Made by a program: the position numbers and the translations under genes. A stretch of 8,292 nucleotides of DNA. Origin: a bacterium. GTDB lineage: Bacteria > ARS69. The notes beneath the pieces were generated by a model that did not search any database, was not told the origin of the DNA, and saw only the letters and a list, made by a program, of their open reading frames with translations. How positions within the stretch are numbered: the first letter of the stretch is position 1; every line of letters starts with the position of its first letter. The stretch is taken from assembly GCA_025774865.1 (NCBI GenBank), contig JALGZO010000435.1, forward strand, positions 1 to 8,292, read 5' to 3'. This document shows positions 341-8,036 of this stretch, in pieces.

Positions 341-486
341 GCCGGTGGAGAGCCGGAGCTCCAGGATTCGCTCCACGCGAGTTGTTGACCGGGCCCACCC
401 GCAAGACGGGAACGCATTGAGTTCGGAAGGGACCGGGCAACGTATCTCGCGGGGAGCGAATCCTGGAGCTCCGCTCTCTCGCCGGC
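341..486 (-). repeat. Structured hairpin element, copy B (inverted relative to copy A)
   Basis: Bases 355-374 pair perfectly with 453-472 (20 bp). After an A/G mismatch (375/452), 376-381 pair with 446-451. Pairing resumes at the outer end, where GCCGG (341-345) faces the CCGGC at 482-486. The 64-nt interior (382-445) carries the same blocks as copy A on the opposite strand, including the CCCG-CAAGA-CGGG hairpin (398-410). Compared with copy A, two stem pairs have changed on both sides (C-G to A-T, and G-C to A-T), so pairing is kept. The element begins on the last base of the ZIP transporter stop codon and could act as a 3' hairpin of that operon, although it has no T-tract. Confidence 0.8.
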
Positions 487-1202
487 TACTCTCCCAGCGT
501 CATCACCAGAATCCCCGCGAACAGTGCGAAGAGGTTCCGGAACCGTCCCTCCGGCGCGGAGTGCACCTGCGGGAGAAGGTCCGCCGTCGCGATGGCGAGG
601 AACGTTCCGGCCGAGAATCCGATGGCTGCGTGGAGCATGCTTCCCGTGAGATCGGACAGTACGCTGAACGAGATGACCGCCCCCAGGGGAGTCGCCAGTG
701 CGAAGAAGCCGATCATCGCCACGATGCGACGGCGCGGATACTCGCAGTGGAGCAGGATTCCCGTCAGAGCCAGCGAAGACGGAAGCTTGTGCAGCACGAT
801 CGCCAGCGTCACCGCGGTCGACAGGTGAGGAATCGAGATCCCGGCCCCCAGCGCGACACCGTCGATGAGCGCATGCAGGGTGATGCCGCAGAACGCCGCG
901 AGCCCCATGTGATGGAACGCGCACTCCTCTTCCTCGCACGGATGCAGCATCACGAAGCGCTCCAGCACGTAAATCAAGAGGAAGCCGACGAGTACCGCCC
1001 CTCCGACGCCTTCCCCGAGCCCCTGCACCGCTTCCGGGATCATGTGGAAGAAGGCCGCGCCGAGCAGCACACCGGTTCCGAACGCGAGCAGGAGGCGCAC
1101 GGTCTTCCGACTCCAGGACCGCACGAGCGGAAGAAGCCCCCCGGCGAGGGTCAGCACGACGACGAGGGCCGCCGCCACCGCGAGGCGTTGCAGGTCGCTC
1201 AC
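486..1202 (-). CDS. ZIP-family metal transporter
   Basis: This 238-residue membrane protein belongs to the ZIP family, which moves divalent metals such as Zn(II), Fe(II) or Mn(II) into the cytoplasm. About seven or eight hydrophobic segments are visible. The signature segments are HALID (110-114) with the following GVALGAG in the fourth helix and LHKLPSS (137-143) in the fifth. The usual fifth-helix pattern is HExPE or HNxPE. Lysine 139 and serine 142 replace acidic or polar ligands, so the second site of the binuclear centre looks lost; a similar HKxP pattern occurs in ZIP9-type members, as I recall it. A loop at 87-98 has H87, C89, C94, H97 and H98 around four glutamates and may bind metal. 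The start is GTG, with GGAG nine bases upstream. The gene lies 2 nt after the preceding HflK-type gene and is the last of its operon. Substrate is not determinable. Confidence 0.88.
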   Translation of the reverse strand: MSDLQRLAVAAALVVVLTLAGGLLPLVRSWSRKTVRLLLAFGTGVLLGAAFFHMIPEAVQGLGEGVGGAVLVGFLLIYVLERFVMLHPCEEEECAFHHMGLAAFCGITLHALIDGVALGAGISIPHLSTAVTLAIVLHKLPSSLALTGILLHCEYPRRRIVAMIGFFALATPLGAVISFSVLSDLTGSMLHAAIGFSAGTFLAIATADLLPQVHSAPEGRFRNLFALFAGILVMTLGE

Positions 1203-1204
1203 GG

Positions 1205-2122
1205 TCAGGGTCTCCGATCGAGGTCGATTATCTTGAGGTCGAAGCCCTCCGTGCCGTCTCGGTCGATGACGTACCGTTTGACCCGCGGCAGGACGACCTC
1301 CAGCGTCTCGAGGTAGATCCGCTTGCGCGAAGCGTCCGGATTCCTGCGGTACTCCTCGAGCACCGCCAGGAACCGAGCCGCCTCACCCGTCGCCTCCGCG
1401 ATGCGACTGTTCCTGTCGGCGTGGGCGCGTTCCTCGATCCAGGTCGCCTCGCCCCGCGCGCGTGGGATGACGGAGTTCGCATAACCGTTCGCCTCGTTCA
1501 TGATGCGCTCTCGGTCGGCCGCCGCGTTCGAGACGTCGCGGAACACGTCGATGACCTGATTCGGCGGGTCGATCGAAAGCAGGTTGACCGAGCTGACAGC
1601 GATCCCCACCTCGAGCTTGTCCAGGCGCGCCTGGGTTCGCTCCCGCACCTCACGAGCGATCAGGGGCCGGTTCACGGTGAACGCGTCGTCGACCGTCATG
1701 CCGCCGAGCACATCGGTGAGAGCAGCCTCGGCGATCCTGGCCATCAGGAACTGCGGGCTCTGCATCCGATAGAGGTAGCTCGCGAGGTCCACGACCGTGT
1801 ACTGGATCATCACCTTGACCGACAGGATGTTCGTGTCGCCGGTGAGCCAGAGTGAGAGTTCCTCGGGAGAGGGAATGCCACGCAGAAAGTCGCGCGTGAT
1901 CATGCCCACCCCCATCTTGTAGACGGTGGTCGTCTGGAATTTGTCGTGACGCTCGATCGGCCACGGCAGCCGGTAGTGGAGGCCCGATGGCACCCCGCGA
2001 TCGACGACGCGGCCGAATCGCTTCACGACCGCGAGCTCTTCGGGCTCGACCTTGTAGAAGCCTGTGATGAACCAGGCGGCGATCAAGAGAGCCGGAACGG
2101 CTCGAAAGGCGTGACGGCGCAT
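1205..2122 (-). CDS. hflK: HflK-type SPFH membrane protein (second HflK copy of the operon)
   Basis: This 305-residue protein has one N-terminal membrane segment (about 8-22) followed by an SPFH/band-7 domain (about 24-200) and an Ala/Glu/Arg-rich helical region (about 200-265). HflK hallmarks are LTGDTNIL (93-100) followed by an IQY strand, AALTDVLGG (133-141), DPPNQVIDVFRDV (185-197), and RIYLETLEVVLPR (268-280). In E. coli, HflK joins HflC in a periplasm-facing cage around FtsH and modulates proteolysis of membrane proteins. This copy lacks the long Gly/Pro-rich cytoplasmic tail that E. coli HflK has before its membrane segment. Its ATG overlaps the stop of hflC (TGATG), so the two are translationally coupled. 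It resembles the C-terminal half of the fusion protein encoded upstream, so the operon has two HflK-type chains to one HflC. No ftsH is in the window. Confidence 0.88.
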   Translation of the reverse strand: MRRHAFRAVPALLIAAWFITGFYKVEPEELAVVKRFGRVVDRGVPSGLHYRLPWPIERHDKFQTTTVYKMGVGMITRDFLRGIPSPEELSLWLTGDTNILSVKVMIQYTVVDLASYLYRMQSPQFLMARIAEAALTDVLGGMTVDDAFTVNRPLIAREVRERTQARLDKLEVGIAVSSVNLLSIDPPNQVIDVFRDVSNAAADRERIMNEANGYANSVIPRARGEATWIEERAHADRNSRIAEATGEAARFLAVLEEYRRNPDASRKRIYLETLEVVLPRVKRYVIDRDGTEGFDLKIIDLDRRP

Positions 2123-3039
2123 CAGGGACTCGTTCTCCCCTGCTTGGCGTCACCCAGTCCCTCCGTCAGAAGCCGCATCAGCTCCGAGTCGGACGGCAGG
2201 ATGATCGTCGTCTGATCGTCGAGGAACGTACGGTACGCCTGGAGAGTGCGGGTGAACTCGTAGAACTCGGGATCTTGCGAAATGGCGTCGCCGAAGATCC
2301 GAGTCGCCTGGGCCTCCCCCTCGCCCCGCAGGATTTCGGCCTTCTCGTACGCCTCCGAGAGGATGCGGCTCTCCTCGCGGTCCGCTTCGGCCCGGATCTT
2401 CCGCGCCTCTTCCTCGCCCTGCGACCGGTAGCCGCGCGACAATCGCTCGCGTTCGGCCCGCATGCGTTCGAAGACGCTCCGACGATTCTGGTCCGGGAAC
2501 GCCAAGCGCTGGATGTCGAAGTCGACGACTTCGACGCCGAACTTCTCGCGAACCGGGCCCGCGATCGTCTCGTGGATCGCGCCGACGACTGCTTCGAGCC
2601 GGCGGCTTTCGGACTGCGTGCTGATGAGCTCCCCGAAGGGAACCGACGCGAGGGCGGCCCCGACCTCCGACGAGATCACGTCGGTGAGCTGGCTGCGCGC
2701 TGCCGCGTCCGAGGGAAGCGCCCGAAAGTACTGCAGGGGGTCCGCTATTTTCCACACCGCGAAGTAGTTCACGATCACGTTCTTCTTGTCCTTGGTGAGG
2801 AACTCGGACTGCTGCGGCTCGAGCACCTGGAGGCGCGCGTCAAAGCGGCGCACGCGCTGCACGAACGGAATCTTGGTCCTCAGCCCCGGTTCGGTGACCA
2901 CGGCCACCGGATTTCCGAACTGAGTCACGACCGCGGTCTCGGTGACGTCCACCATGAAAAACGACATCACGAGGAGCACCAAGACGACGAGCGTCGCCGG
3001 AATCACGATCCGAAGGGCATTCTTCATTTCGTAGCTCAC
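2122..3039 (-). CDS. hflC: HflC, SPFH-family FtsH modulator
   Basis: This protein of 305 residues (301 from the internal ATG) matches HflC closely. It has a membrane segment at about 10-30, then the SPFH domain with VDVTETAVVTQFG (30-42), LTKDKKNVIVNYFAVWKI (81-98) and SQLTDVISSEVG (116-127). A long charged helix follows with FERMRAERERLSRGYRSQG (190-208) and GEGEAQATRIFGDA (239-252). The tail has DPEFYEFTRTLQAY (256-269), as in HflC. HflC forms alternating rings with HflK around FtsH. The GTG at 3039 overlaps the preceding stop (GTGA), the usual sign of coupling. However, its GGGAGA lies directly against the start, so the ATG at 3027 is a real alternative. It lies between two HflK-type genes, which differs from the hflK-hflC order of E. 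coli. Confidence 0.92.
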   Translation of the reverse strand: MSYEMKNALRIVIPATLVVLVLLVMSFFMVDVTETAVVTQFGNPVAVVTEPGLRTKIPFVQRVRRFDARLQVLEPQQSEFLTKDKKNVIVNYFAVWKIADPLQYFRALPSDAAARSQLTDVISSEVGAALASVPFGELISTQSESRRLEAVVGAIHETIAGPVREKFGVEVVDFDIQRLAFPDQNRRSVFERMRAERERLSRGYRSQGEEEARKIRAEADREESRILSEAYEKAEILRGEGEAQATRIFGDAISQDPEFYEFTRTLQAYRTFLDDQTTIILPSDSELMRLLTEGLGDAKQGRTSP

Positions 3040-5219
3040 TCTCCCGCTTGCGTCTGATCCCCGGGATCTTCACCCCGGCGAATCGCACCGCCCCGCAGGA
3101 CCTCCCCGACCGGTAGCGGTTCACCCTTTCCCGAAGAGATCCACAGATCGATCCTGCCCGAGCCGTCCCAGCCCGGTCGAACGATCTTGGTTCCCCGCGA
3201 CAGGACCTCCTCCACTGTCTCCAGATAGAGCCGTGTGAATGTGCCGGTGCGCTTCTCTCGATACGCGTCGGAGCGCATCAGGAGGCTCTCGGATTCGCCC
3301 CGCGCCCGGTGCACCTCTCGCGTCGCGAAGCTCTGCGCCTCGGCGACCGTTCGAGCCGCTTCCCCGCGCGCGAGATTCACGGTCTCGTCGAGGTAGCGGT
3401 ACGCGACGTTGATCGACGTCAGCTTGTCTTCCTGCGCACTGGCCACGTCGCGAAACGCGGCATGCACCTCAGGCGGCGCGTGCACGTCGCGGATTGCGAA
3501 GCGCACCACTTCGACCCCCAGGTCGAGATCCTCCGTGCGCCGTCGGACGTCGTCCAGCACGAGGGTCTCCACGAGCCGCCGGTCGACGGTGTACACGCGG
3601 TCGATCTCGAAGCTCGCGAGAACATCGAGCATCGCGGCCAGCGTCTCGTGCTTGATGGCCAACTCCGGATCTCGAAACCCGTACACGTACTTCTCCGGAT
3701 CGACGATTCGGTACTGCAAGACCGACCTCGTCGCGAGAAGGTTTTCGTCGCCCGTGAGATAGAGCGACTCCTCCTCGAGTCGCCGCGTCGCGACCGCGCC
3801 ACCTCCATCCCCCGGCGCGGACGTGACCTCACCGGGCGAACGAAAGCCGATCTCGATGCGGCGCACGCGGTCGCTCGAAACCAACTCGGCGGTCCCGATC
3901 GGAGGCGGCCAGCGCCAGTGCAGTCCTGCGGCGCGCGGCGCACCGCTCGGCGCTCCAAAGCGGCGGACGAGCCCTTGGTGACCCGGCGGCACGACGAGCC
4001 AGCAGCTCGAGAAGGCCCAGATCCCGAGCACCGCGACCGCGAGTGCCCCGAGCCGGCGCCGGGTGAGACGGAACCCGGTGACCCACTCGAGCCCGCGCAA
4101 GAGCGTGATGAACTCGCGCGGCGCGGCGGCGCGGCGGAATGAGAGAACGAGAAGTGCCGCGAACGCGATCGCGGCCGCCCAGCCCAGCCACGCCGGCATT
4201 TGACGCACCTGGCCCGCCGTCGCCCCGGGATCCATGTTCAGCGTCTGGTAGATGACGTCGAGAAGGGCGCCGAGCGCGAGACTGAGGATGGCGATGGTCG
4301 AGATGTAGATCACCATCACGCGACGACCCAGAAACCGCGACAGGATCGCGAGCGATCCGATGTTTGTCGCCGGCCCCGCGAGCAGGAAGACGAGGGCGGC
4401 CCCGGGAGAGAGACCCTTGATCACGAGCGCCGCCGCGATAGGCGTGGACGCCGAAGCGCAGATGTACAGCGGGATCCCGATCACGAGCATGAGGAGCAGC
4501 GGCACCGGTCCGGACGACAGATACCGAGTCACGATCTCGGCCGGCAGGAGGACGGCGATCATCGCTGAGATGACGAGGCCGGCCAGCATCCAGTGCGACG
4601 TCTCGTCGAACAGCTCGACGAAGGCGCTGGCGAATCCACCGCGAAGCTTGTCGCGGAACGATCCTCGACCCTCGGCGGCCTCGGTGCCCTCGGTCCCCTC
4701 GGCGAGCGCGTCGTGGGCGTGACCATGGGAGTGCGCGCTCGGGACCGCCTCCTCGCCCGGGCCGCAGCACGACTCCGGCGCTGCGTCCGTTGCTTCTTCG
4801 TCATCCTTCCCGAAGGCCTCCGCCGCGAAACCGGCTGTCAGCGCGGAAACCATGGCCGAGAACGGCCGGTAGATGGCCATCAGAGGATCCATCAATCCGT
4901 AGGTCAGGGCGATCGAGTCGACTCCAGTCTCCGGCGTGGAAACCAGGAAGGAGACTGTCGCTCCTCGGCTCGCCCCTCGCTTCCGCAGGGAAAGCGCGGT
5001 GGGCAGGACCGAGCACGAGCACAAGGGGAGCGGGATCCCGATCGCCGAGGCCGCGAAGATCGAGCGCACTCGGCCGGTCCCGAGAAGGCGCTGGATGGCC
5101 GAGGCGGGCACCAGGACCTGGAGCAGCGCGGCGACGAGGAAGCCGAGCAGGATATACGGCGACGCTTCGAGAAAGACCCCGAGGAGCTCCGAGAGGAACT
5201 GCGTGCCGAATGCGCTCAA
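3036..5219 (-). CDS. Fusion: SO_0444/ArsP-like metal-efflux permease plus HflK-type SPFH domain
   Basis: One uninterrupted frame of 727 residues joins two families. Residues about 1-370 are a permease of the DUF318/ArsP/SO_0444 group (Cu/Zn or arsenical efflux), with about nine membrane helices. It shows PLCSCS (65-70), STPETGVDS (94-102) before a conserved MDP-x-MAIYRP stretch, C254 in the second half, and AGPATNIGS (281-289). A cytoplasmic loop has CC (151-152) and an HxHxHxH run (163-169), likely metal-binding. After an arginine-rich segment comes a new membrane helix (390-410) and a full HflK-type SPFH region: VPPGHQGLVRRFG (410-422), LTGDEN (488-493), VLQYRIVDPEKYVY (500-513), and RLYLETVEEVL (663-673). 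The permease sits where HflK normally has its cytoplasmic tail. An in-frame TTG at 5252 would add 11 residues, but the TTG at 5219 has GGAGG seven bases upstream. It is the first gene of its operon, and its stop overlaps hflC. Confidence 0.88.
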   Translation of the reverse strand: MSAFGTQFLSELLGVFLEASPYILLGFLVAALLQVLVPASAIQRLLGTGRVRSIFAASAIGIPLPLCSCSVLPTALSLRKRGASRGATVSFLVSTPETGVDSIALTYGLMDPLMAIYRPFSAMVSALTAGFAAEAFGKDDEEATDAAPESCCGPGEEAVPSAHSHGHAHDALAEGTEGTEAAEGRGSFRDKLRGGFASAFVELFDETSHWMLAGLVISAMIAVLLPAEIVTRYLSSGPVPLLLMLVIGIPLYICASASTPIAAALVIKGLSPGAALVFLLAGPATNIGSLAILSRFLGRRVMVIYISTIAILSLALGALLDVIYQTLNMDPGATAGQVRQMPAWLGWAAAIAFAALLVLSFRRAAAPREFITLLRGLEWVTGFRLTRRRLGALAVAVLGIWAFSSCWLVVPPGHQGLVRRFGAPSGAPRAAGLHWRWPPPIGTAELVSSDRVRRIEIGFRSPGEVTSAPGDGGGAVATRRLEEESLYLTGDENLLATRSVLQYRIVDPEKYVYGFRDPELAIKHETLAAMLDVLASFEIDRVYTVDRRLVETLVLDDVRRRTEDLDLGVEVVRFAIRDVHAPPEVHAAFRDVASAQEDKLTSINVAYRYLDETVNLARGEAARTVAEAQSFATREVHRARGESESLLMRSDAYREKRTGTFTRLYLETVEEVLSRGTKIVRPGWDGSGRIDLWISSGKGEPLPVGEVLRGGAIRRGEDPGDQTQAGE

Positions 5220-5232
5220 GACCGACCCTCCC
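5220..5232 (-). promoter_or_regulatory. Shine-Dalgarno site deciding the fusion-gene start
   Basis: On the minus strand GGGAGGG (5232-5226) stands seven bases before the TTG at 5219, counted from the GGAGG core. The longer frame would start at the TTG of 5252, which has only a GGGAG three bases away. Starting at 5219 also removes a Pro/Gly-rich leader and places the first membrane helix close to the N-terminus, as in other permeases of this group. Confidence 0.65.
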
Positions 5233-5261
5233 GCGAAGTTCGGCGGGGCCAAGGGCTCCCT

Positions 5262-5351: not shown

Positions 5352-7328
5352 GTGAAAATGGTTTCCTCTGACTTCTCGCGCCGAGACGCGCTGATCCTCT
5401 TCCTCGCAGCGTTCCTGCTGCGGGTCGTGGCTCTCTCGCCGGGCCCGATCCAGCCGCAGGAGAGCGCTCATCTCGACCGCGCCGACCTTCCGGCGGCGGC
5501 TTCGCCGGGAAGCGCCGACCTGACGGCGACCCTCGTGGCCGCGCTGAGGCCGCTCGCCCCTGGGGCTTCCGACCCCGACGGCGGCCTCGGGGGCCTTCGG
5601 CTGGTGTTCCTGCTCCTGGGTTCGCTGGCCGCTCCGGCGCTCGGAGCCGCCGGTGGAAGACTCGGCGGGCGGACTACCGGTTGGATCGCGGGCGGCCTCG
5701 CGGCAGTGGGCCCGTTCGCGTTCAAATCGTCGCTGCTGGTCGGGCCGGCCGGCCTGGTGATCACCGCCACGGCGGGCTCCCTCTGGCTTCTGACGATCCT
5801 GGCCGAGAAGGCGACGCCGGGATGCTCCCTCGGCGCGGGTGCACTCACCGGCCTCGCCGTCGCCGCGAACCCGGGTGCGGCCGGACTCGCCCTCGCGTGG
5901 CCCGCCGCGGCCCGCGGAACCTCGTGGATCCTCGCCATTCCGGCCGCGGTCGCCATGTTCGCCCTCGGCGCGCCCGCGACGCTCGTCGCGATCGTTGACC
6001 CGACGACCCCCACGACCGCCGCCGGCTCCGCGGGCCCGGCGTCGCCGCTCGCTTCCGGTCTCTGGACGCTGGTCGGCATCGCCGGCTTCGGTCCATCCGT
6101 TCTGGCAGCATTCGGAATCGCGTCGTCGGCCCGACGCGGACTCGCCGGGGATCGCGCTCTACTCGTGGCCACCGGGGGAGCTTTCGTCGTCAGTCTTCTC
6201 ACCGGCGGAGGTGATCCGTCCCGGCTCGCGGTCGTCCTGCCCGGCGTGCTCCTGCTCGCGGCGCTCGGAATCTCCGGCCCCACACCATGGTCGCGGACTC
6301 TCCCTCGCGCCGCGCAGGGCGTCGTCGTCGCGCTGATCCTCGCGGAGGCCCTGCTCGGGACGGCGCCGAAGATCGCGGGGCGCTGGCTCGCGAGCCCGCC
6401 GGAGAAGGCCCGCGTGTGGATCGAGCAGAACGTCACGCCCGGCTCCCCGATCCTGGTCGAGGGGGACGTGCGTCTCGCCGCACGAGAGGACGCACACCCG
6501 CGGAGCTCGGCGGCCGAGGAAACGTCTCCGATCTATCAGCCGATCGAGCTCCCCGCGCGGGGGTCGTCGGGTCAGGAGTCGACCCTCTTCTACGACCCCA
6601 ACGTCGCGCAGCTCTTCTCCTGGATTCTTCTCGAAGATCGACCGGAGGAGCTCGAGGCCGCCGTCGTCCGGGCGCGCTTCCGGGAGTGGCTTTCCGAGCA
6701 GTGGGACACGGTCGGGCAGTTCGACTCCGTCGACCCCGACGCCGGCTCGTACACGATCTTCCGTCGCCCCTCTGATTTCCGGTACGACCCGGAGTCTGTC
6801 GTTTCGATGGTCGAGCACCTCGGCGCGCCGAGGCTCAACGCGGTGCGCGACACGAGCCAGGCGTTCACTCGGTGGATCCGTCGGTGCGGCACCGCGTTCC
6901 GCGCGATCGGCGAGGCACGGACCGCGCGGGGCCTCCTCGGCCTGGCGAAGACTCGCGATCCCTCCGATCCGCAGGTCAACTTCGAGCTCGGCCTCGTTCA
7001 TATCCTTCTCGGGCAAGACGAGGACGCGAAACGAACGCTTCTCGAAGGGCTCGACGTCGACCCGTATCACGGCGGGATGCACTACAACCTGGGAACGCTC
7101 CTCGAGAAGGAAGGGAGCACGGACGGAGCGGAGGTGGAATACCGCGCCGCCATCCTCCAACTCGACGATCCGACCCCCGCTCACGCTCGGCTCGGCGCGT
7201 TGCTCGTCGCTCGCGGTGATCTCGAAGGAGCGTCGGTGCAGCTCGCGGAGCTTCTGGCCCGGGACCCGCAGGGAGAGGCGACCCTCTTCCTCGCCGAGAT
7301 CATGGCCGACGCTCAGTCCGCTCCTTGA
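5352..7328 (+). CDS. Polytopic membrane protein with C-terminal TPR repeats, possibly GT-C glycosyltransferase-like
   Basis: The 658-residue product has about ten hydrophobic segments between residues 12 and 338, a soluble domain (about 350-480) and a helical tail (about 505-650). The tail reads as four TPR-like repeats, for example QVNFELGLVHILLGQDEDAK (541-560) and GMHYNLGTLLEKEG (575-588). The layout resembles GT-C glycosyltransferases of the ArnT/PMT type: one N-terminal helix, then a first outer loop, where this protein has QPQESAH (34-40) in place of the usual Asp-Glu motif. The WIEQNVTPGSPIL stretch (356-368) resembles the start of the soluble domain in such enzymes. Since the acidic pair is degenerate, catalysis is uncertain. 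Many helices are poor in aromatic residues and rich in Ala/Gly. The start is GTG at 5352 or ATG at 5358, neither with a clear ribosome site. It is divergent from the permease operon. Specific function unknown. Confidence 0.8.
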   Translation: MKMVSSDFSRRDALILFLAAFLLRVVALSPGPIQPQESAHLDRADLPAAASPGSADLTATLVAALRPLAPGASDPDGGLGGLRLVFLLLGSLAAPALGAAGGRLGGRTTGWIAGGLAAVGPFAFKSSLLVGPAGLVITATAGSLWLLTILAEKATPGCSLGAGALTGLAVAANPGAAGLALAWPAAARGTSWILAIPAAVAMFALGAPATLVAIVDPTTPTTAAGSAGPASPLASGLWTLVGIAGFGPSVLAAFGIASSARRGLAGDRALLVATGGAFVVSLLTGGGDPSRLAVVLPGVLLLAALGISGPTPWSRTLPRAAQGVVVALILAEALLGTAPKIAGRWLASPPEKARVWIEQNVTPGSPILVEGDVRLAAREDAHPRSSAAEETSPIYQPIELPARGSSGQESTLFYDPNVAQLFSWILLEDRPEELEAAVVRARFREWLSEQWDTVGQFDSVDPDAGSYTIFRRPSDFRYDPESVVSMVEHLGAPRLNAVRDTSQAFTRWIRRCGTAFRAIGEARTARGLLGLAKTRDPSDPQVNFELGLVHILLGQDEDAKRTLLEGLDVDPYHGGMHYNLGTLLEKEGSTDGAEVEYRAAILQLDDPTPAHARLGALLVARGDLEGASVQLAELLARDPQGEATLFLAEIMADAQSAP

Positions 7329-7353: not shown

Positions 7354-7408
7354 GACGGTGCCTTTACGAGCGGCGGCCCGTTCCGCCCTCCCAACCTGAT
7401 TCCGTTTT

Positions 7409-7413
7409 GGAGG
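7409..7413 (+). promoter_or_regulatory. Ribosome binding site of superoxide dismutase
   Basis: GGAGG lies eight bases before the ATG at 7422. A longer frame opening with TTG at 7407 would run through this site and add five residues not found in the family, so 7422 is the start. Confidence 0.8.
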
Positions 7414-7421
7414 ACCCTCCC

Positions 7422-8036
7422 ATGCCTCACGTTCTCCCACCGCTTCCCTACGAGTACGACGCGCTGGAGCCGCACATCGACGAACAGACGATGCGACTCC
7501 ACCACGACATTCACCACAAGGGCTACGTCGACGGATTGAACGGCGCCGAGAAGAAGCTCGCCGAAATGCGCGAGTCGGGTGACTTCGCGGCCGCCCAAGC
7601 CGTCCACCGAGCTCTCGCGTTCCACGGGTCCGGACACTTCAATCATGTCGTCTTCTGGGAGAACATGGGCCCGCAGGGAGGCGGGACTCCGTCCGGCGAC
7701 CTGGCGTCGCGTATCACCAAGGATTTCGGCGACTTCGACAAGTTCAAGGCACACTTCAGTGCGGCAGCCGCGACCGTCGAGGGGAATGGTTGGGGAATCC
7801 TCGCGTGGCATCCCGCCGCCGGCCATCTCGTCACGCTCGCGTCGATGAATCACCAGAACCAGGGCATCCACGGCGCGATTCCCATTCTGATGCTCGATGT
7901 TTGGGAGCACGCCTACTACTTGAAGTACCAGAACAAGCGCCCCGCCTATATCGAGGCGTGGTGGAACGTGGTCAACTGGGACAACGTCGCGGAGCGATTC
8001 GACAGAGCCATATCGCTCCAGATGCAGACCACCTGA
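7422..8036 (+). CDS. sod: Iron/manganese superoxide dismutase
   Basis: This 204-residue protein is a full-length member of the Fe/Mn superoxide dismutase family, which converts superoxide into oxygen and hydrogen peroxide. The N-terminal helical domain begins with LPPLPYEYDALEPHID (5-20). The four metal ligands are visible: H27 in LHHDIHH, H75 in FNHVVFW, and D159 and H163 in LDVWEHAYY. At the outer-sphere position where Mn enzymes usually have Gln (NQD in E. coli SodA), this protein has His 144 in the string MNHQNQ, the pattern I recall from the mycobacterial Fe enzyme and the cambialistic Propionibacterium enzyme. Metal choice cannot be read from this alone. There is no signal peptide, so it should be cytoplasmic. 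It has its own promoter-like sequence and a hairpin after it. Metal supply by the neighbouring transporters is an idea only. Confidence 0.96.
   Translation: MPHVLPPLPYEYDALEPHIDEQTMRLHHDIHHKGYVDGLNGAEKKLAEMRESGDFAAAQAVHRALAFHGSGHFNHVVFWENMGPQGGGTPSGDLASRITKDFGDFDKFKAHFSAAAATVEGNGWGILAWHPAAGHLVTLASMNHQNQGIHGAIPILMLDVWEHAYYLKYQNKRPAYIEAWWNVVNWDNVAERFDRAISLQMQTT

Follow-up and report, generated by a model that had tools for sequence, protein, structure and literature searches.

The window, the whole 8,292-nucleotide stretch of bacterial DNA that was analysed, carries on its minus strand an operon in the order permease-HflK fusion, HflC, second HflK and ZIP-family transporter, with neighbouring genes overlapping or lying 2 bases apart. 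The fusion gene spans positions 3036–5219 (minus strand). The frame that encodes both the permease and the HflK-like domains is free of stops over 3036–5252 (738 amino acids), and its start codon candidate is a TTG at 5219; because the N-termini of homologues (MSEV.., MNDL.., MPEV..) line up with this codon, 3036–5219 is probably the true extent of the gene. A first-pass annotation of the sequence had given the same coordinates, which fit the homologue starts, but had omitted the strand; a plus-strand reading of the interval is ruled out by the stops that interrupt it.

The claim that a full permease and a full HflK-like segment share one frame is borne out by profile matches to both. Residues 24–369 of the 738-residue frame (4146–5183, minus strand) form an SO_0444-type Cu/Zn permease that scores 382.8 bits against the curated NF033936 cut-off of 300 bits; PF03773 matches residues 23–331 with an E-value of 7.7e-46, and the cut-off of the SaoE efflux family, NF040736, is missed (164.7 versus 325 bits). 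The CSCS, STPETG and AGPATN motifs that had been picked out in this half are all present, and are nearly invariant among permeases 32–64% identical to that of the window. Between the permease halves lies a Cys/His-rich loop, CCGPGEEAVPSAHSHGHAHDAL (4704–4769, minus strand), which is modelled with low confidence and is possibly a metal-binding loop; several homologues likewise have His-rich loops.

A further membrane helix (about residues 354–372, by hydropathy) precedes a positively charged linker at residues 373–402 (4047–4136, minus strand), with 8 Lys/Arg and 2 Asp/Glu. This linker, which would lie in the cytoplasm, corresponds to a charged stretch recognised earlier, for which the compatible topology holds and the position given (residues 361–389) shifts slightly downstream. 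An HflK-type membrane helix follows at residues 403–421 (3990–4046, minus strand; assigned by hydropathy, with a helix at 398–415 in the structure model), and then an HflK-like SPFH and coiled-coil part at residues 420–691 (3180–3995, minus strand), in which PF01145 (Band_7) matches residues 420–617 (E 9.3e-18) and a long helix at 594–666 accounts for the coiled coil. The description of this half as HflK-type is sound for the succession of helix, SPFH domain and coiled coil, but not by two stricter measures: TIGR01933 scores 152.2 bits over residues 420–691, narrowly below its cut-off of 159.4, and the domain lies outside the canonical HflK clade. In an AlphaFold2 model of the fusion (single chain, 15-sequence alignment, mean pLDDT 69, pTM 0.47), the best fold match of the SPFH half is E. 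coli HflK (Foldseek, 9cz2 and 7vhq; VIA-align, 7vhq_E, Z 17.2), and the permease half is similar in fold to ArsB (10tp_A, Z 13.7) and to transporters of the INDY/YdaH type, a likeness that is only suggestive for a helical domain. By sequence profile, HflK, HflC, QmcA and stomatin are the solved proteins that come nearest.

The end of the fusion gene is overlapped by hflC (2122–3039, minus strand; TIGR01932, 221.9 bits), which places an HflC partner in the fusion's own operon. The end of hflC is overlapped in turn by a second, unfused hflK, here hflK2 (1205–2122, minus strand; TIGR01933, 205 bits), and directly after it lies a gene for a ZIP-family metal transporter (486–1202, minus strand; PF02535, E 4.8e-34). 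Neither hflK2 nor the ZIP gene featured in the first-pass annotation. Two successive helices of the ZIP protein read HALID and HKLPSS where the usual ZIP motifs are HNxxE and HExPHE, and by this comparison the metal site may be altered. Divergent from the operon, on the plus strand, are genes for a TPR membrane protein (5352–7328) and an Fe/Mn superoxide dismutase (7407–8036), relatives of one or both of which adjoin the fusion operon in loci L001, L002 and L061. The window also contains a palindromic element of about 120 nucleotides in two inverted copies (1–135 and 354–473; 74-nucleotide arms, 85% complementary), a third copy of which, 86% identical, is found on contig C512 of the same genome.

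Recurrence of exporter-HflK fusions across bacteria

The permease-HflK fusion is present in all five genomes examined from the window's phylum, each of a different genus; in the copy of one genome of the phylum (G002), a contig end removes most of the permease. The domain order PF03773 then PF01145, which had been proposed as a search of protein databases, was found in the rest of the phylum and, within a broad sample of 386 genomes, in six other GTDB families (f85, f95, f98, f99, f118 and f232). Eleven more distant fusion proteins, most at 37–46% identity, share an unbroken junction. The window's genome is fragmented (785 contigs) and has an estimated contamination of 8.3%, as an assembly chimera or frameshift artefact might lead one to expect, but that explanation is refuted by the identical junction in the eleven distant fusions and in the phylum's other genomes, which were assembled independently. 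The homologues are themselves fused, contrary to the possibility raised at the outset that they are always separate proteins, and the fusion of a full SO_0444-type permease with an HflK-like SPFH protein is real.

The window operon has the organisation that defines the wider group, namely an HflK-like SPFH protein with a metal exporter fused to its N-terminus, then hflC, then a second hflK. Most complete loci, in lineages very distant from one another, have hflC and hflK2 directly downstream of the fusion; the exceptions are L051, with neither gene beside it, and L055, in which the contig stops inside the fusion gene. The ZIP gene follows the operon in families f1 and f99 and directly precedes it in f118. 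Genes outside the operon core are mixed among loci, and beyond ZIP in these three families and an island in Aquibium (below), no consistent metal-gene neighbourhood was found across lineages. An unfused permease adjoining SPFH genes was found in none of five loci checked (L063–L067), and no plasmid match to permease-HflK covered 80% of the query. In two families, a lone HflC-like gene is separated from the permease-HflK gene by an acetamidase/formamidase-family gene (L050, 8639–9766; L052, 8585–9613).

In other bacteria, this fusion site is occupied by members of two further exporter families, which the first-pass annotation did not mention. A CDF exporter (PF01545) joined to an HflK-like protein, in the same three-gene SPFH arrangement, occurs in at least 10 families of the sample and, full length or partial, in 17 of the 20 genomes of one phylum. 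P1B-type ATPase-HflK proteins (PF00122, PF00702; CPC motif) occur in five genomes from two families of one phylum, with lengths of 1011–1052 amino acids where complete, and one genome (G268) carries both a CDF fusion operon and a P1B fusion operon. Outside the phylum of that genome, no P1B-HflK was found in the 386 sampled genomes, and none on plasmids covered 80% of the query among the best 5000 records. Two further long frames, in genomes G029 (650 amino acids) and G072 (945 amino acids), were rejected as additional fusion types, no exporter domain having been found in them. A cultured carrier of the CDF type is the alphaproteobacterium Aquibium oceanicum, on the conjugative plasmid NZ_CP018172.1. 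Its protein WP_072608301.1, annotated only as HflK, has PF01545 at residues 8–198 and PF01145 at 243–414; HflC and then HflK are encoded downstream, and the region further encodes an Nramp transporter, a two-component system and a heavy-metal P-type ATPase. The CDF-HflK operon of genome G175 (L091) is flanked on both sides by genes for ParA-type ATPases with 4Fe-4S domains (3240–4130 and 7901–8848), and a plasmid of Methylophaga thalassica (NZ_CP143310.1, L185) has an unfused hflK-hflC pair within a heavy-metal resistance island that includes a MerR regulator and a P-type ATPase.

Judged by their motifs, the fused exporters look functional. The CDF fusions keep HxxxD in TM2 and HxxxD in TM5, a pairing that points to zinc and related ions; H40, D44 and H146 are invariant in 18 CDF-fusion sequences, and the TM5 aspartate is found in at least 90%, being missing in L090. 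All four full-length ATPase fusions retain CPC, DKTG, TGES and GDGIND. For the permease type, a Cu/Zn efflux phenotype is known only from the founding member SO_0444, which is needed for growth of Shewanella under zinc or copper stress and mutants of which are sensitive to both metals (PMC3219624).

Canonical HflK loci behave differently: among 28 of them, drawn from many families, neither a fused exporter nor a third SPFH gene was present in the stretches examined. In a careful tree, the 28 canonical HflKs form one clade (100/99) with no fused HflK inside, the permease fusions another (100/93) and the ATPase fusions a third (100/100), and the CDF fusions fall into two groups; no fused group includes a canonical HflK. 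In a strict sense, the SPFH half is a paralogue that resembles HflK but falls outside the canonical clade. A quick tree places all fused HflK domains together (SH-aLRT 92), and a single clade for all exporter fusions is not rejected (p-AU 0.536). Within the fused permeases, one stand-alone permease nests with weak support, and a single clade is again not rejected (p-AU 0.276). The trees are compatible both with exporters having been exchanged on one SPFH lineage and with fusion having occurred more than once.

Possible dome assembly and competing readings

The most economical reading, and in our view a moderately probable one, is that the fused HflK belongs to an HflK/C-type dome, to which it contributes a Zn/Cu exporter in place of the cytoplasmic tail. 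The operon products would form such a dome at the inner membrane, on its periplasmic side. The last helix of the exporter would end in the cytoplasm and lead into the positively charged linker, the HflK helix would re-cross the membrane, and the SPFH and coiled-coil parts would become part of the ring together with HflC and HflK2. A dome could thereby gather several exporters in one membrane patch, with clustering as the putative benefit, and the exported metal would leave either into the dome or beside it. In other bacteria, the same three-SPFH chassis would bear a CDF exporter or a P1B ATPase. The usual orientation of the HflK helix would require a cytoplasmic C-terminus of all three exporter types, and the charged linkers of five fusions examined, in which every type is represented, are consistent with this.

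The presence of both domains in one frame, the recurrence, the downstream hflC and hflK2, the other exporters in the same slot, the kept motifs, the HflK fold, the separation of the fused domains from canonical HflK, the metal sensitivity of SO_0444 mutants and the known domes of HflK/C and stomatin with their membrane-protein cargo all count in favour of the dome. Against it count the locus with neither hflC nor hflK2 (L051), the mixed outer neighbours and the pTM of the single-chain model (0.47). The ZIP protein is likely an importer, and as such is hard to reconcile with simple export by the operon. The first-pass annotation had envisaged a cage-tethered exporter, with many permease subunits held in each ring of the fusion with HflC; as a whole, that interpretation is partly supported.

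A first alternative is that the SPFH ring recruits FtsH and that the fused exporter is an obligate client, its level set by metal-dependent proteolysis. FtsH access to membrane proteins is indeed controlled by HflK/C (PMC12048511), and the SPFH half is nearest to HflK. Regulated turnover is nonetheless unlikely, given that the neighbouring genes scanned include none for FtsH, that a canonical HflK for control of FtsH is encoded separately, on another contig of the genome, and scores 257 bits, above the family cut-off, and that degrading a subunit of the ring itself would be costly.

The organisation of membrane microdomains is a role widely proposed for SPFH proteins, and the SPFH half might simply steer the exporter to ordered membrane domains, requiring neither a closed dome nor a partner ring. 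The locus devoid of adjacent partners (L051) would suit this arrangement, but the persistence of hflC and hflK2 beside the fusion in most complete loci of very distant lineages makes it quite unlikely. Alternatively, the exporter half might bind metal and signal to the SPFH ring, altering membrane organisation or proteolysis, with transport a secondary matter. A sensor too would need the conserved metal-site motifs, and in some lineages ZIP may be the working transporter; the ATPase fusions, however, retain the whole catalytic cycle beyond their metal sites, and three unrelated exporters serving as sensors is a less simple account than three serving as exporters. We regard a sensory role, too, as quite unlikely.

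The dome with built-in exporters could also be framed more broadly, as a general bacterial compartment for metal export. A three-subunit SPFH dome would then have an interchangeable exporter (SO_0444 permease, CDF or P1B ATPase) covalently joined to it, and the metal pumped into the periplasmic space that the dome encloses would be sequestered, or handed over in a controlled way, rather than freely released. This extension is tentative, and we hold it to be possible rather than probable.

Relation to known SPFH systems

The closest relative by both sequence and fold is the E. coli HflK/HflC-FtsH system (7vhq, 7wi3, 9cz2), with which the fusion has in common an SPFH fold of the HflK type and an HflC encoded alongside. 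It differs in that an exporter takes the place of the cytoplasmic tail, each operon encodes two HflK-type subunits and the SPFH half lies outside the canonical clade. The permease half, well above the NF033936 cut-off and with the family motifs kept, belongs with the SO_0444 family, the founding member of which stands alone, whereas the window's permease has a membrane scaffold subunit attached. The A. oceanicum protein has the same succession of exporter-HflK, HflC and HflK, but with a CDF for the permease, an HflK-only annotation and no adjoining ZIP gene. SPFH-NfeD operons (QmcA-YbbJ and others), as treated in a prokaryotic SPFH survey (PMC2636767), likewise pair an SPFH protein with a dedicated membrane partner, but NfeD is not a transporter, and no NfeD domain was detected in the six window proteins scanned.

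A dome holding transporters has precedent, since FtsH is held within HflK/C assemblies (PMC12048511), and aquaporin-1 and UT-B lie inside domes of human stomatin (PMC12407830). The nearest precedent is stomatin encapsulating aquaporin-1, an SPFH dome housing a membrane transporter, although the stomatin cargo is a separate protein, the dome cytosolic and the organism human. Covalent, exchangeable attachment of the exporter to the dome is without precedent in the literature searched. No description of exporter-HflK fusions of the permease, CDF or P1B type was found in the open-access literature searched; the passages searched of the prokaryotic survey (PMC2636767) and of a paper on Pseudomonas SPFH proteins (PMC13086221) contain none. 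Domain-architecture databases probably list such proteins, and what is claimed as new is that the literature searched contains no account of them as a system.

The recurrence with three unrelated kinds of exporter in distant bacteria suggests that one way in which metal export is organised has been overlooked. Here the cargo is covalently part of a putative ring subunit and encoded in its gene. Should the dome form, bacteria would have a counterpart to the stomatin domes that enclose channels, and the effect of an SPFH dome on its cargo could be tested directly. As the Aquibium oceanicum plasmid illustrates, the annotation 'FtsH protease activity modulator HflK' can hide a whole metal exporter.
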